DNA from: Planctomycetales bacterium | GTDB lineage: Bacteria > Planctomycetota > Planctomycetia > Isosphaerales > Isosphaeraceae | Length of the DNA stretch: 59,231 nucleotides | Reading direction: 5' to 3' | Assembly: GCA_027449865.1 (NCBI GenBank) | Contig: DAIDKV010000261.1 | Location: 1-59,231, forward strand | Part shown: one piece after another, positions 25,811-50,828 of the stretch | Position numbering within the stretch: the first letter of the stretch is position 1 | How the letters are laid out: every line of letters starts with the position of its first letter | Program-made: the position numbers and the translations under genes | Notes under the pieces: model-generated | Databases searched by the model: none | Told to the model about the DNA's origin: nothing | What the model saw: only the letters and a program-made list of their open reading frames with translations

Positions 25811-26016
25811 CCATGTAGGAGCCGGCTCCAGCCGGCGATCTTCGCGAGACCTTTGGCTTCGTCCAGGTCGCCAGCTGGAGCTGGCTCCTACATGGGCGAT
25901 TGGCCCGGTCCTTCGCCATTGGCTGATCGATTTGACTCACGAGAGCTTCCGCCGGCGATCTTCGCGTGACCTTTGACTTCGTCCGGGTCGATCACCCTTG
26001 TAGGAGCCGACTCCTG
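25811..26016. repeat. REP-like palindromic element (inverted pair plus a degenerate copy)
   Basis: The arms beginning ccatgtaggagccggctcca (25811-25832) and their reverse complement (25873-25894) match over 22 bases with one mismatch, with about 40 bases between. A second, weaker copy runs from the gccggcgatcttcgcgtgac stretch near 25948 to tgtaggagccgactcct near 26010. The rest of the 25610-26094 spacer is AT-rich and gene-free. Confidence 0.75.
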
Positions 26017-26094
26017 TCCCCCGAGGCTGTGGTCCGGTGGGTCGCGACGCCCTGGGTGAGCCGAGAAATCTTCTTTCAAGAGGACTGTCCACCG

Positions 26095-26793
26095 ATGCTC
26101 TGGCTCGATCAACTCCTGATTCTGCTTCCCGGCCTGGCGCTGGTGATCTGGGCGCGGGTCCGGATCGCCCGGGCGCGGGCGGACGCCGGGAAAATCCCGG
26201 CCGATCTCCGCGGTGCCGAGGCCGCGGAGCGGGTGTTGCGGGCCGGAGGAGTGGGAAACCTCGCGATCGAGCCCGCCTCGGGCGCGCTGAGCGACTATTA
26301 CGACCCGCGCAGAAGAGTGCTCCGCCTCTCGCCAAAAACGCACGACGGCCGATCGCTCGCCGCGATCGGAACCGCGGTCCACGAGGCCGGCCACGCCTTC
26401 CAGCAAGCGGCCCGATCGCCCTGGCGATTTGTGCGCAATGCCCTCGCACCCATCGCCGGAATCGGCGCGAAGGTCGTCGCGATGCTGATCGTCGCCGGAG
26501 TGGTGATCGACATGTTCCGGCTGGTCGAGATCGGGATCGACCTCTTCCTCGGGCTCGTGGTGATCCAGTTAATCAACGTCCCGGCCGAGCGTGACGCGGC
26601 CCGTCGCGGTCGTGAAGCGATGTTCGCCGCCGGGCTCCTGAGCGACGAGGACCGCCCCGCCCTCGACCGCCTGCTCAACGCCTCGGCCTGGAAATACGTC
26701 GCCCAGACACTCCCCTACCCCAGCGCGCCTCGATTCGGGAACCGGACCGAGACCGGGCCCCAGCCCATCGAGCCGGTTCCCGGCGCCCGGTAA
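26095..26793 (+). CDS. Membrane zinc metallopeptidase (Zn_peptidase_2 / YugP type)
   Basis: The product is 232 residues from ATG 26095 (AGAGGA upstream). An N-terminal membrane helix (LDQLLILLPGLALVIWARV) precedes the catalytic core: HEAGHAFQQA gives the HExxH zinc site (His131, Glu132, His135 approximately). Two further hydrophobic helices (IGAKVVAMLIVAGVVIDMFR; LFLGLVVIQLI) follow, and then NVPAERDAARR, where the family has P-x-E-x-[DN]-A-[S/A]-R and the Glu is the third ligand. This is close to the B. subtilis YugP family of membrane proteases of uncertain substrate. The protein lacks some of the C-terminal extension of other members. Confidence 0.85.
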   Translation: MLWLDQLLILLPGLALVIWARVRIARARADAGKIPADLRGAEAAERVLRAGGVGNLAIEPASGALSDYYDPRRRVLRLSPKTHDGRSLAAIGTAVHEAGHAFQQAARSPWRFVRNALAPIAGIGAKVVAMLIVAGVVIDMFRLVEIGIDLFLGLVVIQLINVPAERDAARRGREAMFAAGLLSDEDRPALDRLLNASAWKYVAQTLPYPSAPRFGNRTETGPQPIEPVPGAR

Positions 26794-26851
26794 CGAGCCA
26801 CGCGCACACCGATAGGGTCGCATCCACCGACGACAGAGAGGGACCGGATCG

Positions 26852-28132
26852 TCAGGCCGTCGCGCTATCCAGCGGGCTGCGCCAGATGTCGTTTCTGGGG
26901 AAGAGGATGCGGGCGGCGTCGATGGCCGTGCTGGCCGAGGCGACGAAACCGTCTTCCTCGGTCGCGGCGTCGATTCCGGTGTGGCCGAGGATCAGCCGGG
27001 TCATCGCCGAGGGAGTGAGCGTCAGGTACCGACGGCTCAGCTTCTCGCGCTCGATCCGGGCGTCGCGGGGTCCGGCGTGGATCAGCCAGCGTTCGTCGGC
27101 CACGCAGAGCCCCAGCTCCAGCGGGAGCGAGACTCCCGACTCGATCGCCCGCCGCGAAAGCTCCGGAAGGATCGCCTCCAGGAGCCGGCCCAGGTCCGGG
27201 ACGTGATACATCGACGAGGTCCCGTCGTACGTATCCTGGTCGATGATCCGGCCGTTCGAACTCCGGACAATCTCCATCGCTGGGTGCGAGGTGGGCGCGT
27301 GGATCGTCACCTCGGGATACGCCCGCTCCAGCGCCTCGGCCCGGACACGGCCGAGCAGGATCCGCATGGCCTGCGGATAGGCCGGGTCGTAGGCCAGTTC
27401 GAGGATCTTGTGGTCCTTGATGAACGCGTAACCGCGGACCGCCTCGCCCTGGCAAGCGACCCAGATCACGTGCGCGTATCGCCGGCCAATGATCCAGCGC
27501 CAGTATTCCTCGGTGCGCACGACCGAGCCGGTCGTGCGCGCGTACTGGCCCTCGTAGAGCCTCATCAGGTCGCCCAGTTCCACCTGCCGCCACGGTCGGA
27601 CGTGCCAGAAGGCGCCGCGGCCCTCGAGAACTCCGTCGCTCACCTGCGGGAGGTTCCGGCTGAGGATCTGGCCGAACGTCTGCCGGCCACAGACGGCCCA
27701 TCCGAGCGGCCGGTAAAACTGCGGCATCCCGGTGGTGAGCGCCTGGAGCACGGCCCCGCCACGACGGGCTCGGTCGCTCGCCAGCCGCATCAGGTTCTGC
27801 GCGAAGCCCATCCCCCGGAACTCCGGGAGCGTTCCGACCCACATCACTCCATTGACCGGGAGAGTCGCCGCGCCATACCGGATCGTCCGGTCCGTCAGAT
27901 GCACGTGACTGACGACCTTGCCGTCGACCTTCGCCAGCAGTCGCGCGTCGGGCCGGTACGCCGGATCTCCGAGCGCTCCGAGAAACGAGTCGCGATCGGG
28001 CCCGTGGAAGACGTGCAGCAATGTCTGGTAGACGGCCTCATGGTCGGCCTCGGACCCCGGCCCATATTCGACCGTTCCCCGGGCGATCGGTAGCCGTAAT
28101 CCAGGCGTGGGGGATTTCATGGGTTCTGCCAT
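26852..28132 (-). CDS. Eis-like GNAT N-acetyltransferase
   Basis: The product is 426 residues from ATG 28132, with ATG 28120 as an alternative; neither has a strong ribosome binding site. The N-terminal GNAT fold has VNGVMWVGTLPEFRGMGFAQ, containing the acetyl-CoA loop (R-G-M-G), and FYRPLGWAVCG. A second GNAT-like half follows (YAFIKDHKILELAYDP), and the C-terminal part (LELGLCVADERWLIHAG onward) is SCP2-like. This three-part organisation is that of Eis and related acetyltransferases, which modify amines including aminoglycosides. The natural substrate here is unknown. It converges with the metallopeptidase gene (59-base gap). Confidence 0.8.
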   Translation of the reverse strand: MAEPMKSPTPGLRLPIARGTVEYGPGSEADHEAVYQTLLHVFHGPDRDSFLGALGDPAYRPDARLLAKVDGKVVSHVHLTDRTIRYGAATLPVNGVMWVGTLPEFRGMGFAQNLMRLASDRARRGGAVLQALTTGMPQFYRPLGWAVCGRQTFGQILSRNLPQVSDGVLEGRGAFWHVRPWRQVELGDLMRLYEGQYARTTGSVVRTEEYWRWIIGRRYAHVIWVACQGEAVRGYAFIKDHKILELAYDPAYPQAMRILLGRVRAEALERAYPEVTIHAPTSHPAMEIVRSSNGRIIDQDTYDGTSSMYHVPDLGRLLEAILPELSRRAIESGVSLPLELGLCVADERWLIHAGPRDARIEREKLSRRYLTLTPSAMTRLILGHTGIDAATEEDGFVASASTAIDAARILFPRNDIWRSPLDSATA

Positions 28133-28579
28133 ACCAGGACCGGGGCTTCGACGAGCAACACGCGGGGCTTCCGACGACTTCCAGGGACGTTCTATCGGGG
28201 AACCCGACCGATTCTTTGTTCTCATTGTACGTGCTCGCTGAACGCTCCGCCGCTATCCAGAATGGGAAAATCTCAGGGTCAGGCCGCATCTCCCGGCAAA
28301 CCGGACCGGGGCCAGCCCTTGGATCGCTCGAACCCACCATTTCTTTCTGCTTCGGGCCCGTCCTGGAATCCTGCACATTGCGATCCCGCCGGTCTCTCTT
28401 CGGAATCCTTCCCCCGGCATATTTTGAGAAGCCGCCAAAAAAACGGCCCGGGATCACCGCTTCCCGCGTGCTCGATCGACGGAACTTCCTGCCCGCCCGA
28501 ATTTTCTGTCGACTACTACACCCTTCTCGCGGCCTTCCTTCGCAAGTCCCGCGGACGGTGCTCTCTCGGAGATCCTGTC

Positions 28580-28818
28580 CCGAGCCGGCTCCCGCCGGCG
28601 ATCGGCGCGTCACCCTGAGCTTCGTTCACGTCTCTCGGCTGTAGGAGCCGGCTCCAGCCGGCGATCAGAGCGTCACCCTGGGCTTCGTCCGGTCGGGAGC
28701 TGGAGCTCCCTCCTACATGGGAATGGGATCATTCCATCTATCACGTCCCTCTCGGCTGTAGGAGCCGGCTCCAGCCGGCGATCGGCGCGTCACCCCGGGC
28801 TTCGTCCGGTCGGGAGTG
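28580..28818. repeat. Cluster of REP-like palindromes
   Basis: Three successive copies of a unit reading gtaggagccggctccagccg-gcgatc-(n)-gcgtcaccctgggcttcgtc occur at about 28581-28640, 28641-28720 and 28757-28815. The middle copy also has an inverted half (gggagctggagctccctcct). The 5' part of the spacer (28133-28580) shows no gene I can support despite open frames on both strands. Confidence 0.75.
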
Positions 28819-28867
28819 ACACGCGCTCATTCCCGGCCCGTTCCGGCAGGAACTTTCGCCCGAGCTT

Positions 28868-30493
28868 TCAGGATCGGGCCTTCCATCCCCCGACATCCCG
28901 AAACGCCCCGCGAAGCCGATCCTCGGAATGCAGCACCGAGGCAAACTCGCGACTCCCGGCCATCCGGCTCGACCGAAGCCCGGCCAGGATCGATCGCCGA
29001 CGCTCCAGCATTTCCGCTCGCTGTTCCGCAACCCACGGCTGCATGGCCGCGTTGATCCGGCGCAGGGCCACCGCCCGGGCGACGCGATCGCGACGGGTGG
29101 AAATCGGTCCGGCGAGGGCCGCGCGCTTCTCCTCTATTAGTTTACGAAGCTCGGGCGAGGAGGGTTCGGGAAGGTCTCGATCCGGATTGAAGGTGAGGTC
29201 GCGGAGCCGTCGGTCGATTTCGAGAACATCCGCCGGGGTGACCGGCTCAACCGGAAGGCCAAGGCGCGCCGTCATCGAGATCGCCAGAAATCCAGGCGGC
29301 TCGATCCCGAAAAATCGGGCGGAGATGGCGTCGCCCAGTTCGTCGTACTTGGCGCCTCCGATCCCGTGCAGGAAGAGGTCTCCCAGGAAGAACCGGGCGA
29401 AGGCGGTGGTGGTCAGGGCTCGGGTCCGGATTCGGACCGAATCCGCGGGGAGATCCCGCAGCCGTTCCACGGCGCAACAGGCTTCGCCGTCGGCGTGGAG
29501 GGGCAATTCGACGAGGATCTCGTCCTCGCCGCCGATCCTCAGCTCCATCGTCCGCCCGCGTTGCCGGGCCAGGAGCGGACGACGACGCGCCCGCGAACCG
29601 GCCCGCCAGGCCCAGAACGGCGCCTCCAGCCAGTCGCCCTCGCGCCCGAGCGCGGCGACCGGGTGATGCCGGCTCCGAATCCGGTGCGCCGATCGGTACT
29701 CGGCCAGGCAGCCGTTGTGAACTTCCTGGTAACGCGGAAGCTGCGCGATCAGGTGCGAGGCGAACCAGAGAAAACCCTCGGTCTGGCAGAGCTGACCCAG
29801 CGGCAACTCCAAATTGGCGACGCCCCAATCGGCCTCGATCTCGCGACGGGCCAGCGAGAACCGCATCCCAACCGCGTCGACCTCTCGCCCCCGTCGCACG
29901 GCTCTCGGCCAGAAATTCTCCAGGAGCGGATGGGCGATCGCTCCATCAAGAACGTCGCGTGCTCGATCGGCGAAGGTGGTGAAAACCGACTCGTCGACGA
30001 CCTTCCAGTCCTCGTACGGAATCTCGCCGTGCCAGGTGTCGAACGGAACGGGAACGCCGGTCCATCGTCCGTCGCGAAGCGCCGGGACGCGGATATCGGA
30101 GCCCTTGGGAATATCGTTGTCGACGATCAGATTGAGCGCCAGCCCGCCGGCGGCGTGGGCCAGGCCGGCGGTGGCGAAGTTCTTGCCCCAGACGCCCGGG
30201 TGGAACAGCTCGGGCTGGTGTCCGGTGACGACGAGCGGCCGGTCGGCGTCGGCATCGGTCTCGCGCTCGGGAGCGGCGTCGAAACCATATCGGCGAAGGA
30301 ACGCCCGGGCCAGCGTGAGAACCTCGCGACGCGTCTGAGCCCGAAGCCAGTGGGCCGATCGCCCCTGAACGTCGTAATCCCAGCCCGAGAGGGTCTGGGC
30401 GTTGGCGGCGAGCAGCCCGAGGGCCTCGTCCCCAGGCGGGTCGACCAGCAAACCGCCGTCGGTCGCGGGGGCACGAAGGCGGCGGGCCGTCAT
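28868..30493 (-). CDS. BshC-like protein of unknown function
   Basis: The start is ATG 30493, which overlaps the preceding glycosyltransferase stop as ATGA, indicating translational coupling; the product is 541 residues. The block RPLVVTGHQPELFHPGVWGK...LIVDNDIPKGSDIRVPAL resembles the 'VVTGQQ.GL..GP.Y..YK' and 'DDHDF' regions of BshC, the cysteine-adding enzyme of bacillithiol synthesis. A later block, GGAKYDELGDAISARFFGIE, resembles the second conserved region, and the C-terminal ~130 residues are coiled-coil-like. Similarity is partial and no bshA/bshB gene is seen nearby, so a role in bacillithiol synthesis is a hypothesis only. Confidence 0.6.
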   Translation of the reverse strand: MTARRLRAPATDGGLLVDPPGDEALGLLAANAQTLSGWDYDVQGRSAHWLRAQTRREVLTLARAFLRRYGFDAAPERETDADADRPLVVTGHQPELFHPGVWGKNFATAGLAHAAGGLALNLIVDNDIPKGSDIRVPALRDGRWTGVPVPFDTWHGEIPYEDWKVVDESVFTTFADRARDVLDGAIAHPLLENFWPRAVRRGREVDAVGMRFSLARREIEADWGVANLELPLGQLCQTEGFLWFASHLIAQLPRYQEVHNGCLAEYRSAHRIRSRHHPVAALGREGDWLEAPFWAWRAGSRARRRPLLARQRGRTMELRIGGEDEILVELPLHADGEACCAVERLRDLPADSVRIRTRALTTTAFARFFLGDLFLHGIGGAKYDELGDAISARFFGIEPPGFLAISMTARLGLPVEPVTPADVLEIDRRLRDLTFNPDRDLPEPSSPELRKLIEEKRAALAGPISTRRDRVARAVALRRINAAMQPWVAEQRAEMLERRRSILAGLRSSRMAGSREFASVLHSEDRLRGAFRDVGGWKARS

Positions 30494-41582: not shown

Positions 41583-41891
41583 GATTCGGTTCTCCTGGCT
41601 CGCCTCGTGGATCGTTCCCATCGGTCATTTTCTCCCGCCAGCCCCCCACTGGCAACGCGCCCGGGGCGATCGCCCGAGGAACGGATCAAGCCGGGGGGTT
41701 CGACGGGCCGAGCCAGGATCCGATCGGCTCGCGGGTCAGCGACGGGGGCGCGATTGCCAGGGGGCCGATGAGCCGGTAATCTTGGGGGGAGCAAGGGTTC
41801 GGTGAAGGGGGACGGTCGTGCCGATCCTCGCGTGCGTCGTCTCGCCGACGGGGCGCCCCCCTCGACTCCAGGACCGGAGAGAATCGCGCGA
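41583..41891. other. Intergenic region before the glucan synthase gene
   Basis: No separate gene is supported in these 309 bases. The glucan-synthase frame is already open from a GTG at 41802, but that stretch (Arg/Pro-rich) is unlike the domain and the GGAGAG near 41876-41881 supports ATG 41892. Confidence 0.4.
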
Positions 41892-44800
41892 ATGAATGCG
41901 ACGTCCGTCGAGTGGGCCGCCCCGTCGGGTCAAGGGGCGGAAGCGGCCCCGGCCGCGCTGATCGACCCCCGCGGCGAGGCCCCAATCCGCGCCGATCGGC
42001 TCGGGCTGGATGGGCTCGACGCCCGCGCCGCCCAGCTCGCCTCGGCCTGCCAGATCGCCCCGCACCGGAGAGCCCCCAGCCCCCTGCTCCGCCGGTTCGT
42101 GGAGAACAAAAAGGTTCTCGAGGACGTTCATCGTCGACTGGTCGCCGTGGGCGACCGCCGCCGCCTCCCGGGCATCGACGCCGAATGGCTCGTGGATAAC
42201 TTCCACATCATCGCCGATTCGCTTCGCGAGGTCAGGCGCGATCTTCCGCCGGGCTACGACGCGCTCCTCCCGAAGCTGGAAGCGGCGCCGATGGCCGGCT
42301 ATCCGCGGGTTCACGCCCTCGCGATGGCGCTCGTCGCCCACTCGGATAGTGACCTCGACGAGGCCCGAATCGCCCGGTTCGTCCGGGCCTTCCAGGAGGT
42401 CGCTCCGCTCACCATCGGCGAGCTCTGGGCCCTCCCCACCATGCTCCGCCTGGTCCTGCTGGAGAACCTCAGGCGCCTCGCCGATCGGATGATGTTCGGC
42501 TGGGAAGAACGCCGGCGCGCCGAACGCTGGGCGGCCGACGTCGTCGCCCGGATTCGAGCCCGGGCCGCACGAGCCAACGACCCGCCCGCCCACGTCGATG
42601 ACAACACCCTCCCCGACTTCGGCGGCCTCAGCGATCCGTTCGTCGTCCAGCTTCTGAGAATCCTCCGCGACCAGGAAGGCTCCGCCGACGTCCTCGACCG
42701 CCTCGAATCGGCCCTCTCCGCGCGCGGGAGCGACCCAAACGAGGTCCTCCGCCGCGAACACCACGACCAGGCCGCCAATCAGGTCACCGTCGGCAACGCC
42801 GTTCTCTCGCTCCGCCTGCTCTCGGCCGTCGACTGGAACGCCTTCTTCGAACAGTGCAGCCGGGTCGAGGCGATCCTCCGCGACGATCCCTCCGGCGTCT
42901 ATCCCTTGCAGGATTTCCCGACCAGCGACCGATACCGACGAATCGTCGAGGCCATCTCGCGAGGCTCGGGCGCCGACGAGGTCGAGGTCGCCCGCTTCGC
43001 GATCGACCTGGCCCGCCGCGCTCGCCAGGACTCGGCCGACGCCTCGCCGAAAGACCACGTCGGCTATTACCTGATCGATCGCGGCCGACGCGACCTGGAA
43101 GCCCACTTCGGATACAAACCCGGCCTCTGGCCCCGGCTCCTCGGCGCCATGCTCGACCATCCCAGCGCCACCTACTTCGGCTCGATCGGACTGGCGCTGG
43201 CTTTCTTCGTCACGGCGGCCATCGGCCTGGTCGTCGGCGCGGGGACCGGGTGGGGATGGCTTCTCCTCGCGGTCGCCGTGGTCCTGCTCCCACTCTCCGA
43301 GCTGGCCGTCGGACTGGTCAATCACAAGCTGACCCTCTTCCTGCCCCCAAGAGTTCTCCCCAAGCTCGACTTCAAGGAAGGTATCCCCGCCGAGCACATG
43401 GCGTTCGTCGTTATTCCCGGAATGCTCGCACGCCACTCGAGCGCCGCGGTCCTGATCGAACGGATGGAGACACACTACCTCTCCAACCCCGACCCGAACC
43501 TGCGGTTCGCCCTGCTGACCGACTTCAGCGACGCCCCCGCCGAGTTCATGCCCGACGACGAGGCCTTCCTCCGCGACGCGATCGATCGGATCCGAATCCT
43601 CAACGACCGCCACCGCGCCGGCGACCCGCTCGGACGGACCTCCACCTCGGGCGGCGACCACCCGACCGGCCCCGACCGCTTCTTTCTCTTCCATCGAAAG
43701 CGGCTCTGGAACCCCTCGCAGGGCGTCTGGATGGGCTGGGAACGAAAGCGCGGGAAGCTCCAGGAATTCAACCGGATGCTCCGCGGCGCCCGCGACACCA
43801 GCTACACCACCTTCAGCGTCGACCCCTCCGAGCTGCCCCAGGTCCGCTACGTGATCACGCTCGACGCCGATACCCGCATGCCGCGCGACGCGGCGGGCCG
43901 GCTCGTCGGCGCCATGGCCCACGCGCTGAACCGGCCGAAATTCGACCCGAAGGCCGGCCGGGTGGTCTCCGGCTACGGCGTTCTTCAGCCAAGGGTGAGC
44001 TTCCACCTCACCGCCGCGACCCGGTCCCGGTTCGCGGCGATGCTCGCGACCTCCGGCGGAATCGACCCCTACTCGACGGCCGCCTCCGACTCCTACATGG
44101 ACCTCTACGGCATCGGCACGTTCACCGGCAAGGGGATCTACGACGTCGACGCCTTCGAGGCCGCGACCGCCCACGCCTTCCCCGAAAACGCGATCCTCAG
44201 CCACGACCTCATTGAGGGAAACTTCTCCCGCTGCGGCCTGCTCAGCGATACCGAACTTTTTGATGACTTCCCGGCCCGATACAATGCCTACTCCAGGCGC
44301 GAGCATCGGTGGGTCCGCGGCGACTGGCAGCTTCTCCCCTGGCTCGCCCCCCGCGTACCGACCTCCGAGGGCCCGAGCGCCCGGCGTCCGAACCCGCTCC
44401 CGGCCCTGGAGCGCTGGAAGCTGCTCGACAACCTCCGCCGAAGCCTCGTCCCGCCGGCGCTTCTGGTCCTGCTGGTCCTCGGCTGGACCCTCCTTCCCGG
44501 CTCGCCCTGGGCCTGGACCATCCTCGGAGTGCTGGTCCTCTCGGTCCCACTCTGGCAGGTGGCCATGTCGATCGCGGTCGCCATCCCTCGCCAGGGGCTC
44601 CTCTCGCCGCTCCGGGCCGCGCGCGAGACCGTCCCGGCGATGGTCGGACAGATCTTCATGGAACTGGTCCTGCTCGCCTACCGGTCGTCCGTGCTGGTCG
44701 ACGCCATCGCCCGAACACTCGCGCGACTCTACGTGAGCCGGAAAAAACTGCTGGAATGGGAAACGGCCGCCTCGACCGAACAACGGCTGGGAACCGATTT

Positions 44801-47800
44801 GCGGCACTTCATCCAGGGGATGTGGACCGGCCCCACGCTCGCCCTCGCGATCGGGGCGATCGTCGCGGTGGTTCGTCCCGACGCCCTGCCGGCCGCCTCG
44901 CCGATTCTGCTCGCCTGGCTGATCTCGCCGGGATGGGCGTACTTCCTCAGCCGACCGCCGGCCGTCGAGCGAACCGTCCTCACCGACGACGAGCGGAAAG
45001 CCCTCCGCCGCGTCGCGCGCAAGACCTGGCTCTTCTTCGAGACTTTCGTCGGCGACGAGGACAACTGGCTCCCGCCCGACAACTTCCAGGAATACCCCGA
45101 CGGCCGGATCGCCCACCGAACCTCGCCAACCAACAAGGGCTTGCTCCTTCTATCCACCCTCTCCGCGGCCGACTTCGGCTACATCGGCCCGTTCCGGCTG
45201 GTCGACCGCCTGGAAAAAACCCTGCGAACCCTCCAGAAGCTGGAAAAGCACTGGGGACATATCCTCAACTGGTACGATACGAAAACCTTGCAGCCGTTGA
45301 CCCCTCGATACGTCTCGACGGTCGACAGCGGCAACCTGCTCGGCTGCCTGGTCACGCTCTCGCACGGACTCCGCGAGAAGGCCACCGCGCCGATCCTCGA
45401 CGCCTCGATCGCGCGCGGCCTCGAAGACGCCTTCCGGCTCGCGACCGAATCCCCCTCGGCGCCGAGGGAGCCGGCGCGTCGGCTCGCCTCGCTCTTCGCC
45501 GGCCCGATTCCGGCCGACCTGGCCCAGTGGGACGAATGGCTCGCCTCGGTCGAGACCGCGGCGCGCGACCTCGCGGCGCGGACGTCGAGAGCGACGGATT
45601 CCCCGACGACCTGGGCCGATCGGCTGGTCGAGCAGACGACCGGCTGGCGGGCCGAGCTGGCCTCGCTGGCACCCTGGATCACGGGCTTGATCGCGATCGA
45701 GAACCGCAGCCACGCGTTGTTCCCGTCCGACGACGACGCCAGGCGATGGTCCTCGATCCGGGCCGAACTGCTCGCCCCCTCGCCGCTCCGGGTGATCGCC
45801 GAGCGGTCCGACAGAATCGCCTCCGAGCTGGAAACCCTGGCGGAGCGGGCAAGGACTCCGTCGATGGTCGAGACGCTCCGCGCCCTCATCGCCGCCGTGC
45901 GCGACCCGGTCCCAGGCGAGGTTTTGACCCGTCTGCATCAGGCGGCCGACGCCGCCCGCGACCTCGCCGCCGGGATGGACTTCCGACCGCTCTACCGAAC
46001 CGATCGCCAGCTCTTCAGCATCGGCTACAACCTGACCGAAGGCCGGCTCGACAGCGCCTGTTACGACCTGCTCGCCTCCGAGGCGAGCCTGACCTGCTAC
46101 CTTGCCGTCGCGCGCGGCGAGGCGCCCCGGAAGCACTGGTTCCAGCTCGGCCGGCCGTTCATCCGGGCCGCCGGACGACTCGGGCTGATCTCCTGGGGCG
46201 GGACCATGTTTGAATATCTGATGCCCCGGCTGATGCTCCGCACCCTCCCCGGCACCACCCTCGCCGAGGCCTGCAAAACCGCGGTCGCCCGCCAGATCGA
46301 ATACGGCCGGGAACTCGGCCTGCCGTGGGGAATCTCCGAGTCGAGCTACGGCGAGCAGAACATCGCCGGCGACTACCACTACCAGGCGTTCGGAACGCCG
46401 GGCCTCGGGCTCAAGCAGGGGCTCGAACTCGACCGCGTCTTCGCCCCCTACGCCACAATGATGGCCGTGATGCTCGCCCCGCGCGAGGCGCTGGAGAACC
46501 TCCGGCACCTCACCCGGGAAGGCGCCGAGGGCGAGTACGGCTACTACGAGGCCATCGACTACACACCCGGTCGCGTCCCCGAGGGGAAGCGGTCGGTGGT
46601 CGTTCAGTCGTACATGGCGCACCACCAGGGGATGGGGCTGGTCGCGCTGAACAACGCCCTTCATGCCGATGTGATGACCCATCGATTCTCGGCCGAGCCG
46701 ATGGTCCGCGCGATCGACCTTTTGCTGGAAGAGCGGCTGCCGGCCGACCCTCCGATCCTCGAACGGGCGCTCACCGCGGCCGAGGCCGCCGCCGAGCTTC
46801 GCGACGAGGGCGAGTCCGCCGCCGAGGAATCCGCCGAGGGCGCCGCCCCCTCGGCGCCGACCGCCGCGCCGATGAGCCGGCGGCTGACCACGCCCTTCAC
46901 ACCGGCGCCTCGAACCCACATCCTCTCCAACGGCCAGTATCACGTTCTGCTGACCAACGCGGGATCGGGCGTCAGCACCTGCCGCGGGCTCGACATCACC
47001 CGGTGGCGCGAGGACGCGGCGAAGGAAGGCCACGGTTCGTTCCTCTACATTCGCGACGTCGGCAAGGGCTCGGCCTGGTCGGCCGGCTTCCAGCCAACCT
47101 GCCGGGTTCCCGAGAGTTTCGAGGCCATCTTTGCCGCCGACAAGGCGTCGTTCCGCCGCCGCGATTACGGAATCGAGACCACCCTGGAGGTGATCGTCTC
47201 GCCCGAGCATCGCGCCGAGGTCCGCCGGCTCACGCTGGTCAACCACGACGCCTCGCCCCGCGAGATCGAGGTCACCAGCTATGCCGAGATCGTCCTCGCC
47301 CCGCGCGCCAGCGACGTCGTCCACCCGGCGTTTTCGAAGCTCTTCGTCGAGACCGAATGGCTCGGCGGTCCAGGCGCGATTCTGGCCAGGCGCCGGATGC
47401 GCTCCGCCTCGGAAGAACCACTCTGGGCGGTCCACGTCTCGGCCGTCGACCGGGCGACCCGCGGCGGCACCGCCATCGGACCGATCCAGTTCGAGACCGA
47501 CCGCGCCCGCTTCCTCGGCCGGGGCCGAACCGTCGCGAATCCGGCAGCCGTTGACACCGGCGCCACCCTCTCGGGAACCGCCGGACCGGTGCTCGACCCC
47601 GTGTTGAGCCTCCGCCGCCGGGTGAAGCTCGAAGCCGGAGGGACCGCCGTCCTCTCGTTCGTCACGGCGTTCGCCGAGTCGCGCGACGAGGCCCTCGGAA
47701 TCGCCGATCAGTTCCGCGAGATCGCCGCGTCCACCCGCGCCTTCGAACTCGCCTGGGCCCGAATCCAGGTCGAGCACCGGCATCAGGACCAGTCGGGCTC

Positions 47801-50800
47801 GGAAGCCCACCTCTACCAGCGGCTCGCCGCGCACGTCGTCTTCGCCGGCGGAGCCCTGCGCGGCGACCCCTCGGCGATCCAGCGCAACCAGCTCGGGCAG
47901 CCAGCCCTCTGGCGGTTCGGGATCTCCGGCGACCGGCCCATCGTCCTGGCCCGGATCGGCGAGGGAGGCGAGCTTCACCTCGCCCGACAACTCGTCGCCG
48001 CTCATGCTTATCTGACCGCGCGTGGACTCGACTTCGACCTCGTCCTGATCGACCAGCAGGCAGGCAGCTACCTCGACGCGATGAACCGGCAATTGCTCGA
48101 CGCCGTTCGCGCCGGCGGCTCGGCCGACCGGCTCGACAAACCGGGCGGCGTCTTCGTCCGCCGCTCCTCGCAGATGACCGAGGAAGAACGGACCCTCCTG
48201 GAAGCCACGGCGCGCGTCGTTCTGGTCGGCGACCGCGGGCCGCTCTCAACCCAGCTCGACCGGACCGAGCACCACGCGCCAGCACCCCCTCGATTGAATC
48301 CGACCCGCGACCCGGTCGTCCCTCACGACGAGCCGGTCCGACTCCCCGACGACCTGCTTTTCGCGAACGGAACCGGCGGCTTCACCCCCGACGGCCGCGA
48401 GTACTGCATCCTGGTCGAGGGCTCGCCGCCCCCCTCGGCGGGCCGGAACGGACCGCTGGCGCACGGGCCCTCGCCCTACCCCGCGCCCGCCTCGCACCTC
48501 CGGCTCCCACCCGCGCCCTGGGCCAACGTGGTGGCCAACGCCACCGCCGGATTCGTCGCGACCGAGTCGGGACCCGGCTTCACCTGGTCGGCCAATAGCC
48601 AGGGCAACCGCCTCACCCCCTGGAGCAACGACCCGGTCTCCGACCCGCCCGGCGAGGCCATCTACCTCCGCGACGAGGAAACCGGCGAGGTCTGGTCGCC
48701 CACCCCGCTCCCCATCGCCGGCCCCGAGCCCACCCTCGTCCGACACGGCCAGGGCTACACGTCCTATCAAAAAGTCGCCCACGGAATCGAGCACGAGCTG
48801 ACGCTGTTTGTCCCGCCCGACGACCCGGTGAAACTCTTCCGCCTCCGCCTCCGCGCCAGCGGCGAGAGCGGACCCCGGCGCATCTCCGCGACGTTCTACG
48901 CCGAGTGGGTCCTCGGCCCCAACCGCGACGCCTCCTCAATGCACGTCGTCACCGAGATCGACGAGGAAACCGGCGCACTCCTGGCCCGCAACGCCTACCG
49001 AATCGACCTCGCCGATCGAGTCGCGTTCGCCGATGTCGACCGGCGGCCAAGATCGCTGACCACCGACCGCCTGGTCTTCCTCGGCCGCCACGGCTCGCTC
49101 TCGACACCCGCCGCGTTGACTCGCGCCGGCCTCGCCGAACAGCTCGGCGCCGGCTTCGACCCCTGCGCCGCCATCCAGGTCCAGATCGACCTGCGCCCAG
49201 GCGCCTGGTCCGAAATCGTCTTCCTGCTCGGCGAGGCCGACAACCTCGAATCGGCCCGCGCCGTCGTCCGCCGACACCGCGAGCGCGGCCGCGCCGACCA
49301 AACATTGACCGAGGTCCGCGAAAACTGGGACCGCATCCTCGGCACCGTCCATATCCGTACGCCCGACGCCTCCATCGACCTGCTCGCCAACCGATGGCTG
49401 CTCTATCAGGTGCTTTCGTGCCGATACCTGGGCCGATCCGGCTTCTACCAGTCGGGCGGCGCCTTCGGCTTCCGCGACCAGCTCCAGGACGTGATGGCGA
49501 TGGTCCACGCCGCGCCCGAGGTCGCGCGGGCGCACATCCTCCGCGCGGCCGCGCACCAGTTCCTCGAAGGCGATGTCCAGCACTGGTGGCACCCTCCGGT
49601 CGGACGCGGCATCCGAACCCGGATCTCCGACGATCCCGCCTGGCTCGGCCTGGCCGCCAGCCATTACGTTGAAGTCACCGGCGACGCGAGCCTCCTCGAC
49701 GAACCCGTCGACTTCCTGAGCGCTCCACCCCTGAAGCCAGGCCAGGAAGACGATTACGGACTCCCTGACCCAGCCCACAAGCCGGCCTCCCTCTACGACC
49801 ACATCCTCAAGGGCCTCGACCGGGTCGACCGCCTCGGTCCCCACGGCCTCCCGCTGATCGGCCACGGCGACTGGAACGACGGAATGAACCGCGTGGGCGC
49901 GGAAGGGAAGGGCGAAAGCGTCTGGCTCGCCTGGTTCGCGGCGACCGTCTTCCGCCGAATCGCCACGATCGCCGATTCACGCGGCGACGCCACCAAAGCC
50001 GCCCACCTCCGCCAGCGCGCCGACGCCTTCACCTCCGCCTGCGAATCCACCGCCTGGGACGGCGAATGGTATCGCCGCGCCTACTTCGACAACGGAACCC
50101 CACTGGGCTCATCGTCCAACCCAGCCTGCCAGATCGACTCGCTCCCGCAATCCTGGGCGGTGCTCGCCGGATCGGCCAATCCCGACCGCGCCCGGCGCGC
50201 GATGGAGTCGGTCGACCGCCTGCTGGTCGACCGCGAGGGCCGGCTCATTCTGCTCTTCACCCCGCCGTTCGACGCCGAACCGATGGACCCCGGTTACATC
50301 AAGGGATACGTCCCGGGGATTCGTGAAAACGGCGGCCAGTACACGCACGCGGCGACCTGGGTGATCCAGGCCTTCGCCGCGCTCGGCGAGGGCCGCCGCG
50401 CCTTCGAGCTTCTCTCGCTGATCAACCCGATCCGCCACGCCGATGACCCAGCCTCGGTCGAGCGGTACAAGGTCGAACCGTATGTGGTGGCGGGCGACGT
50501 CTACGGCCGACCGCCGCACGTCGGCCGGGGCGGCTGGACCTGGTACACCGGCTCGGCCTCGTGGCTCTACCGGACGATTGTTGAGTCGATCCTCGGCCTG
50601 AAGCGACAGGGCGACCGACTCACCATCGAGCCCCGCATCCCGCCCGACTGGACCGGCTTCTCGATCGCATACCGATATGGATCCACCACATATCGAATGG
50701 AGATCGCAAACCCGCGCGGCGTGGAGTCGGGCACAACCGAGATGCACCTCGACGGCCGCCCCCTACCCGACCGCATGATCCCCCTGATCGACGACGGCCG

Positions 50801-50828
50801 CAACCACGAAGTCCGTATCTCGATGTAG
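41892..50828 (+). CDS. ndvB: Cyclic beta-1,2-glucan synthase (NdvB/Cgs-type)
   Basis: The product is 2978 residues from ATG 41892, close to the 2800-2900 usual for the family. Order: N-terminal soluble region; membrane segments (about 426-455 and four more at 847-1020); GT84 glycosyltransferase with ITLDADTRMPRDAAG (about 655), YGIGTFTGKGIYDVDAFE, and RWVRGDWQLLPWL; glucoamylase-like domain (about 1330-1590) with PWGISESSYGEQNIAGDYHY and MAHHQGMGLVALN; two GH94-type sugar-binding modules; and a GH94 phosphorylase/chain-length control domain with GHGDWNDGMNRVGAEG (about 2656-2671) and GGWTWYTGSASWLYRTIVES. In Brucella and Agrobacterium the enzyme makes periplasmic cyclic glucans from UDP-glucose at the inner membrane. 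No ndvA exporter is adjacent. The product in a planctomycete is inferred only. Confidence 0.9.
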   Translation: MNATSVEWAAPSGQGAEAAPAALIDPRGEAPIRADRLGLDGLDARAAQLASACQIAPHRRAPSPLLRRFVENKKVLEDVHRRLVAVGDRRRLPGIDAEWLVDNFHIIADSLREVRRDLPPGYDALLPKLEAAPMAGYPRVHALAMALVAHSDSDLDEARIARFVRAFQEVAPLTIGELWALPTMLRLVLLENLRRLADRMMFGWEERRRAERWAADVVARIRARAARANDPPAHVDDNTLPDFGGLSDPFVVQLLRILRDQEGSADVLDRLESALSARGSDPNEVLRREHHDQAANQVTVGNAVLSLRLLSAVDWNAFFEQCSRVEAILRDDPSGVYPLQDFPTSDRYRRIVEAISRGSGADEVEVARFAIDLARRARQDSADASPKDHVGYYLIDRGRRDLEAHFGYKPGLWPRLLGAMLDHPSATYFGSIGLALAFFVTAAIGLVVGAGTGWGWLLLAVAVVLLPLSELAVGLVNHKLTLFLPPRVLPKLDFKEGIPAEHMAFVVIPGMLARHSSAAVLIERMETHYLSNPDPNLRFALLTDFSDAPAEFMPDDEAFLRDAIDRIRILNDRHRAGDPLGRTSTSGGDHPTGPDRFFLFHRKRLWNPSQGVWMGWERKRGKLQEFNRMLRGARDTSYTTFSVDPSELPQVRYVITLDADTRMPRDAAGRLVGAMAHALNRPKFDPKAGRVVSGYGVLQPRVSFHLTAATRSRFAAMLATSGGIDPYSTAASDSYMDLYGIGTFTGKGIYDVDAFEAATAHAFPENAILSHDLIEGNFSRCGLLSDTELFDDFPARYNAYSRREHRWVRGDWQLLPWLAPRVPTSEGPSARRPNPLPALERWKLLDNLRRSLVPPALLVLLVLGWTLLPGSPWAWTILGVLVLSVPLWQVAMSIAVAIPRQGLLSPLRAARETVPAMVGQIFMELVLLAYRSSVLVDAIARTLARLYVSRKKLLEWETAASTEQRLGTDLRHFIQGMWTGPTLALAIGAIVAVVRPDALPAASPILLAWLISPGWAYFLSRPPAVERTVLTDDERKALRRVARKTWLFFETFVGDEDNWLPPDNFQEYPDGRIAHRTSPTNKGLLLLSTLSAADFGYIGPFRLVDRLEKTLRTLQKLEKHWGHILNWYDTKTLQPLTPRYVSTVDSGNLLGCLVTLSHGLREKATAPILDASIARGLEDAFRLATESPSAPREPARRLASLFAGPIPADLAQWDEWLASVETAARDLAARTSRATDSPTTWADRLVEQTTGWRAELASLAPWITGLIAIENRSHALFPSDDDARRWSSIRAELLAPSPLRVIAERSDRIASELETLAERARTPSMVETLRALIAAVRDPVPGEVLTRLHQAADAARDLAAGMDFRPLYRTDRQLFSIGYNLTEGRLDSACYDLLASEASLTCYLAVARGEAPRKHWFQLGRPFIRAAGRLGLISWGGTMFEYLMPRLMLRTLPGTTLAEACKTAVARQIEYGRELGLPWGISESSYGEQNIAGDYHYQAFGTPGLGLKQGLELDRVFAPYATMMAVMLAPREALENLRHLTREGAEGEYGYYEAIDYTPGRVPEGKRSVVVQSYMAHHQGMGLVALNNALHADVMTHRFSAEPMVRAIDLLLEERLPADPPILERALTAAEAAAELRDEGESAAEESAEGAAPSAPTAAPMSRRLTTPFTPAPRTHILSNGQYHVLLTNAGSGVSTCRGLDITRWREDAAKEGHGSFLYIRDVGKGSAWSAGFQPTCRVPESFEAIFAADKASFRRRDYGIETTLEVIVSPEHRAEVRRLTLVNHDASPREIEVTSYAEIVLAPRASDVVHPAFSKLFVETEWLGGPGAILARRRMRSASEEPLWAVHVSAVDRATRGGTAIGPIQFETDRARFLGRGRTVANPAAVDTGATLSGTAGPVLDPVLSLRRRVKLEAGGTAVLSFVTAFAESRDEALGIADQFREIAASTRAFELAWARIQVEHRHQDQSGSEAHLYQRLAAHVVFAGGALRGDPSAIQRNQLGQPALWRFGISGDRPIVLARIGEGGELHLARQLVAAHAYLTARGLDFDLVLIDQQAGSYLDAMNRQLLDAVRAGGSADRLDKPGGVFVRRSSQMTEEERTLLEATARVVLVGDRGPLSTQLDRTEHHAPAPPRLNPTRDPVVPHDEPVRLPDDLLFANGTGGFTPDGREYCILVEGSPPPSAGRNGPLAHGPSPYPAPASHLRLPPAPWANVVANATAGFVATESGPGFTWSANSQGNRLTPWSNDPVSDPPGEAIYLRDEETGEVWSPTPLPIAGPEPTLVRHGQGYTSYQKVAHGIEHELTLFVPPDDPVKLFRLRLRASGESGPRRISATFYAEWVLGPNRDASSMHVVTEIDEETGALLARNAYRIDLADRVAFADVDRRPRSLTTDRLVFLGRHGSLSTPAALTRAGLAEQLGAGFDPCAAIQVQIDLRPGAWSEIVFLLGEADNLESARAVVRRHRERGRADQTLTEVRENWDRILGTVHIRTPDASIDLLANRWLLYQVLSCRYLGRSGFYQSGGAFGFRDQLQDVMAMVHAAPEVARAHILRAAAHQFLEGDVQHWWHPPVGRGIRTRISDDPAWLGLAASHYVEVTGDASLLDEPVDFLSAPPLKPGQEDDYGLPDPAHKPASLYDHILKGLDRVDRLGPHGLPLIGHGDWNDGMNRVGAEGKGESVWLAWFAATVFRRIATIADSRGDATKAAHLRQRADAFTSACESTAWDGEWYRRAYFDNGTPLGSSSNPACQIDSLPQSWAVLAGSANPDRARRAMESVDRLLVDREGRLILLFTPPFDAEPMDPGYIKGYVPGIRENGGQYTHAATWVIQAFAALGEGRRAFELLSLINPIRHADDPASVERYKVEPYVVAGDVYGRPPHVGRGGWTWYTGSASWLYRTIVESILGLKRQGDRLTIEPRIPPDWTGFSIAYRYGSTTYRMEIANPRGVESGTTEMHLDGRPLPDRMIPLIDDGRNHEVRISM

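Follow-up and report, generated by a model that had tools for sequence, protein, structure and literature searches.

The window, by which we mean the whole stretch of 59,231 nucleotides that was analyzed, lies on contig C261 (DAIDKV010000261.1) of the Planctomycetales genome GCA_027449865.1 (hereafter G000). It carries five intact hairpins of one pattern—GTAG-GA-(6-bp stem)-TCCA-(stem)-GA—together with about three degraded ones, arranged as two REP/inverted-REP dimers and extra copies spread over two intergenic gaps (Table 1). The first-pass annotation had described REP-like palindromes in at least five copies, in pairs and a triple cluster, and this description holds: the five intact copies form one inverted pair and one inverted pair with a third copy beside it.

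Table 1. Hairpin features of the two window clusters (contig C261) and the RAYT gene on contig C33 of the same genome
Feature	Contig	Position	Strand	Basis
REP head type A, stem GCCGGC, exact consensus GTAGGAGCCGGCTCCAGCCGGCGA	C261	25815..25838	+	scaffold search
Spacer of REP/inverted-REP dimer, conserved in dimers genome-wide	C261	25839..25867	+	
Inverted REP type B, stem GCCAGC/GCTGGC, 53 bp from partner	C261	25868..25891	-	
Remnant: 3' half of type A REP plus spacer, 89% identical to first copy (family D2)	C261	25945..25990	+	
Degenerate type A REP (GTAGGAGCCGACTCC...)	C261	about 26000..26023	+	
Degenerate type A REP, GTAG tag lost, spacer after	C261	about 28578..28601	+	
REP head type A, exact consensus	C261	28641..28664	+	
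Inverted REP type C, stem GGGAGC/GCTCCC, 52 bp from partner	C261	28693..28716	-	
REP head type A, exact consensus	C261	28758..28781	+	
RAYT P0001, 169 aa, frame intact	C33	29537-30046	-	NCBIfam REP_Tyr_transpos

An alpha/beta hydrolase gene and a zinc metallopeptidase gene (PF04298) flank the first cluster, each at a distance of about 205 bp. The second cluster occupies the long gap that separates a GNAT acetyltransferase gene from an unknown gene, whose 3' end is 86 bp away. The spacer of the last intact copy runs to about position 28814, ending where an inverted REP would start. Searching the window for the core GTAGGAGCCGGCTCC with up to 3 mismatches gave 19 matches, against 3.9 ± 2.2 in shuffled sequences (maximum 9). 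Folded as single-stranded DNA, the A-B unit at 25811–25896 reaches −35.4 kcal/mol (z −9.0), while folding of the A-C dimer in the second cluster is unremarkable (z −1.6). A pseudoknot between GGAG and a loop CTCC, considered because GGAG...CTCC is conserved, was discarded, as there is no room for the connecting loops. Farther along the window, a 3008-aa open frame on the plus strand (41802–50828), with GH94 supersandwich and catalytic domains and a glucoamylase-like domain, resembles a cyclic beta-1,2-glucan synthase.

How large is the population to which these hairpins belong? Within 3 mismatches, the 8.48-Mb genome has 216 copies of the 24-mer head repeat—the first-pass annotation had set about ten copies as the level below which its REP reading would fall—and the reversed pattern does not occur at all. 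Architecture and context were read from 431 kb of the genome picked around listed copies, a choice that favors exact copies; in this sample we found 178 hairpins with the scaffold, against 2 in the reversed sequence and 0–3 in shuffles. Four covarying stem types are present: A (GCCGGC, 124 copies), B (GCCAGC/GCTGGC, 23), C (GGGAGC/GCTCCC, 19), and D (GGGGGC/GCCCCC, 7). Across all four, the GTAG tag, the tag-proximal GA, the loop TCC, and the 3' GA are fixed or nearly so, and the loop is mostly TCCA. Type A stands alone, in head-to-tail tandems with a period of 62–69 bp, or facing B, C, or D. Nearly all inverted pairs set type A opposite one of these three at 53 bp; an A-A inversion was seen once. 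In 31 such A-B/C/D dimers, conservation runs from TGTAGG to CCTACA, being moderate in the spacer and absent from the flanks, and gives units of ~79 bp (TGTAGGAG...CTCCTACA). This layout is REPIN anatomy. The population thus has the features by which GTAG-tagged REP/REPIN families are recognized: a short hairpin with a 5' GT[AG]G tag, more than 100 extragenic copies, and sharp-edged inverted dimers. The same genome contains 117 genes of the SBP_bac_10/DUF1559 family, a planctomycete hallmark, which was absent from 14 control genomes.

Which enzyme could have spread these repeats? A domain search of the contigs returned six Y1_Tnp matches in the genome and none on C261, so the first-pass statement that no RAYT gene is present stands for the window but not for the genome, which encodes one on contig C33. 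This protein, P0001, has a Pfam Y1_Tnp match, scores 122.1 bits against the NCBIfam model for REP-associated tyrosine transposases (NF047646; cut-off 80), and matches E. coli TnpA-REP (PDB 4er8) at E 8.5e-12. It carries an HUH motif, WQ, and a single catalytic Tyr in Y-x-x-x-N-P; residues P70, H72, H74, W111, Q112, Y133, N137, and P138 are invariant in a 14-row alignment. (An AlphaFold model computed without an alignment was set aside, with a pLDDT of 41.) Five type A copies surround the gene. Three are on its 3' side, where a gap of 8 bp separates the nearest from the gene; the other two, on the 5' side, precede the gene start by about 65 and 130 bp. The RAYT flanked by the same palindrome that the first-pass annotation had proposed to look for is therefore found in the very genome that contains the window.

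We also asked whether enzyme and hairpin occur together more widely. At E 1e-25 or better, orthologous RAYT genes were detected in 10 of the 397 genomes of the class (G000 included), and each of the 10 genes has a hairpin of this scaffold in its flanks, in most cases with copies in facing orientation on the two sides. The stems of these flanking REPs differ by lineage yet stay complementary, each orthologue having its own version, which extends the association to sister genomes and, with the copy number, supports the first-pass reading of the palindromes as resembling REP/BIME sequences, a kind mobilized by RAYTs in other bacteria. Among 24 hairpin variants from these lineages, 95.8% of stem cells pair, falling below 46% when partners are shifted by one column, and 37 cells are changed on both sides against a shuffled mean of 10.1; as the variants were picked to represent each lineage, these counts speak for the retention of pairing and not for the frequency of change. 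Genomes with at least 10 exact-scaffold copies make up 7 of the 10 RAYT carriers and 10 of the 387 others (Fisher P 7e-9, with shared ancestry ignored). Most of these 10 copy-rich genomes with no RAYT detected belong to a genus or family that also holds a carrier, and in the three carriers with a zero count the hairpins match the scaffold only if a loop of 3 bases or an altered one is allowed. Copy number across lineages ranges from 241 down to 0. No orthologous RAYT was detected at E 1e-25 in G014 (79 copies), G226 (92), or G017 (149), the last being a fragmented assembly, estimated at 89% complete, in which the gene may have been lost or may have failed to assemble.

Two orthologues from outside this set, in a KSB1 MAG and an unplaced MAG, are also REP-flanked. 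The same REPtron is seen in the KSB1 and UBA2214 MAGs (L074, 5826–6608; L075, 5884–6557), with stems GGCCTC/GAGGCC and GCGCTC/GAGCGC. In the tree their RAYTs sit inside the planctomycete ones, with weak support (86/81), a position hinting at transfer between phyla. Separately, three Y1 proteins from the same bacterial family as G000 (L049, L050, and L051, in G043, G036, and G030) group with E. coli RayT (98/100), suggesting that a second, group-2-like RAYT type may exist in this family.

Taken together, we consider it very probable that the hairpins are non-autonomous REPs—mostly REPIN/BIME dimers and tandem arrays—spread by a cognate RAYT (TnpA-REP), the HUH/Y1 single-strand endonuclease encoded once, on C33. 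Copy number, hairpin covariation, sharp-edged dimers, and a RAYT flanked by the same REP in this genome and in every orthologue found are the basis of this reading. The joint occurrence of enzyme and repeat across genomes, the position of the REPs between genes, and the way arrays differ from one related species to another add to it. Cleavage, mobility, and any effects of the REPs on expression are what we infer. By analogy with characterized RAYTs (PMC8266576), a REP would fold when its DNA becomes single-stranded (e.g., on the lagging-strand template), and the enzyme would recognize the folded strand by its tag, stem, and loop. The HUH motif and Tyr133 would then cut nearby, at CT sites if known systems are a guide, and the excised piece would be religated elsewhere (PMC8266576). 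Local expansion and loss of arrays probably also involve homologous recombination or slippage between copies.

How dynamic are the arrays? The orthologue of the C33 gap in G017, a genome of the same genus, is on contig C915; it has no RAYT, and its REP array is differently composed. The gene was either gained in G000 or lost in G017. At another locus, C154, both genomes have additional repeat units that differ between them, while G018 has one REP. The first window cluster has an extra tandem unit in G017, and at the second G018 keeps only degenerate relatives. In G016–G019 we looked for empty sites of the window copies at base resolution and found no clean one. The gap near 28256–28926 is ~470 bp shorter in G019 and G016, with edges too diverged to align; upstream of the GNAT gene, these two genomes join the flanks of this gap in ~194 bp, and the ~470 bp that they lack is partly non-REP sequence. 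Recombination between the REPs on either side of the RAYT gene might let the gene enter and leave arrays, which would then act as exchange sites for it; repeats and enzyme would in that case be separable partners, an idea to which we give a rather low probability. If it were true, REPs would outlast the enzyme in some species and be rearmed once a RAYT cassette landed in any array.

The alternative that survives best keeps the RAYT but places its action in the past: the REPs would now be an inert population changing only by homologous recombination between copies. Abundant REPs with no detected RAYT in several genomes of the same genus would fit this scenario, as would the degenerate copies in the window, and recombination between tandem copies can explain the array differences between species. 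Against it, 109 of the 178 sampled hairpins are identical stem-loops and the GA tail is kept in more than 95%, both in a set sampled via near-exact matches, and the RAYT frame is intact with its active-site residues present. We regard a wholly inert population as unlikely.

Do the copies instead serve the host? They could be regulatory structures (terminators, mRNA-stability hairpins, or sites for nucleoid proteins) kept for host benefit, with the RAYT neighborhood secondary. All credible REP clusters that could be placed are extragenic, none falling inside a called gene (as called by a simple codon-score gene finder). Gaps with REPs are convergent more often than background (11/32 against 29/161, P 0.054) and divergent less often (4/32 against 42/161, P 0.12), neither difference being significant. 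This placement, together with the strong long hairpin that the A-B unit forms, is what a host role would have in its favor. However, promoter-avoiding insertions would yield the same gene context, and extragenic placement with a mild, nonsignificant convergent lean is what insertion followed by purifying selection would leave. Copies and arrays differ at orthologous sites among species of one genus, and abundance is specific to lineages. A terminator would not need the tag and loop bases to be as conserved as they are, and inspection by eye showed no U-tract at the window copies. A host function as the explanation of the whole population is thus very improbable in our judgment. Some REP copies may have been domesticated, and a terminator or mRNA-stability role is possible for some; those in the window probably sit between genes as passive inserts.

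The weakest alternative, that the palindromes are MITEs or the ends of a classical IS200/IS605-type or DDE insertion sequence, can draw on a second Y1 protein on C10 with the look of a plain IS200 transposase, but we give it next to no credence, as the REP-adjacent protein scores above the RAYT equivalog cut-off and below the IS200 one (NF033573; 30.5 bits against 55), the Y1 proteins on C179 and C202 fall under the RAYT cut-off (NF047646), and no palindrome (up to 6 mismatches) lies beside the Y1 genes on C10, C202, C179, C192, or C80, which were thereby also rejected as partners of the repeats. The Y1_Tnp domain on C192 (41853–42188; L035) lies inside a 711-aa open frame at the contig end, adjoins no REP, and is nearest in the tree to a similar protein of G012.

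The repeats also leave a mark on the assembly. Contigs C7, C60, C75, C83, C114, C146, C153, and C198 of G000 have REP arrays at their starts or ends, with copies at the very edge (e.g., C7:18-167, C60:19-168, and C75:2-25). With so many contigs starting or ending within arrays, the assembly was probably broken at these repeats, a warning for genomes of this kind. Large arrays are accordingly under-read in our sample, where 23 of 63 clusters lie within 150 bp of the end of a fetched stretch, mostly a contig end.

The REPs described here, with their probable cognate RAYT, add a planctomycete lineage and two MAGs from elsewhere to the range of a well-defined enzyme–repeat pair. The dozen matched pairs, in which stems covary while tag, loop, and tail stay fixed, form a data set for asking which hairpin bases short-REP enzymes read, and related genomes that have the array without the enzyme could be used to test how long REPs persist once their RAYT is gone.

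How does this system compare with known ones? GTAG repeats and REPs have already been reported in Planctomycetes (PMC3733652), and the hairpins resemble the GTAG-1 and GTAG-2 families of Pseudomonas, Xanthomonas, and others (PMC3733652) in their GTAG tag, the unpaired dinucleotide between tag and stem, the short stem, the conserved 3-base motif on the far side, and subfamilies that arise by complementary stem changes; the dinucleotide and the far-side motif are features of the GTAG-1 type (PMC3733652). The loop differs, being TCCA/CTCCNN here and TT in the Pseudomonas example. Dimers are almost always heterodimers, unlike the GTAG-1 dimers of Pseudomonas putida and P. entomophila, which are mostly homodimers, and head-to-tail tandems are common, whereas they are rare in most reported families (PMC3733652). 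Pairing of two REP types as inverted heterodimers instead recalls the Y/Z2 pairs of E. coli, whose RayT (group 2, subclass 2.2; 4er8) is likewise an HUH/Y1 endonuclease beside its REPs, the Y and Z REPs of BIMEs. That enzyme, however, belongs to another clade, and the stems of its REPs are long and bulged, the tag lying at their foot.

Short REPs go with enzymes of group 3, which equals subclass 2.5 (PMC6006769; PMC8266576), and with these our system shares the short REP, a tag 1–2 nt from the stem, the WQ motif, and a D at the position equivalent to E100 of E. coli (FYDH). In a tree of 48 Y1 proteins, the flanked orthologues group with a Pseudomonas RAYT that has this REP type and with Pseudoalteromonas and Chloroflexota proteins (94/77), apart from E. 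coli RayT. This RAYT, encoded on a Pseudomonas plasmid, has GTGGGAGCGAGCTTGCTCGCGA repeats in its 5' flank, which follow the same scaffold with a two-base loop, though P0001 and the Pseudomonas comparator share only about 30% identity. Binding and cleavage of REPs have been assayed for the E. coli, Stenotrophomonas maltophilia, and Marinomonas enzymes (PMC8266576); in the Marinomonas system T13 of the loop is reported to be essential, and T is invariant at loop position 13 in our 24 aligned variants. Departing from subclass 2.5, the protein has a C-terminal extension ending in LDWDWW, and its HUH and Tyr motifs, DHYH and YVHYNP, are off the listed consensus (DH[LF]H and YI[VI]ANP), so we place it close to, not inside, that subclass. 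The population is thus best read as a GTAG-1-type REP/REPIN family with a cognate RAYT close to Bertels group 3/Quentin subclass 2.5.
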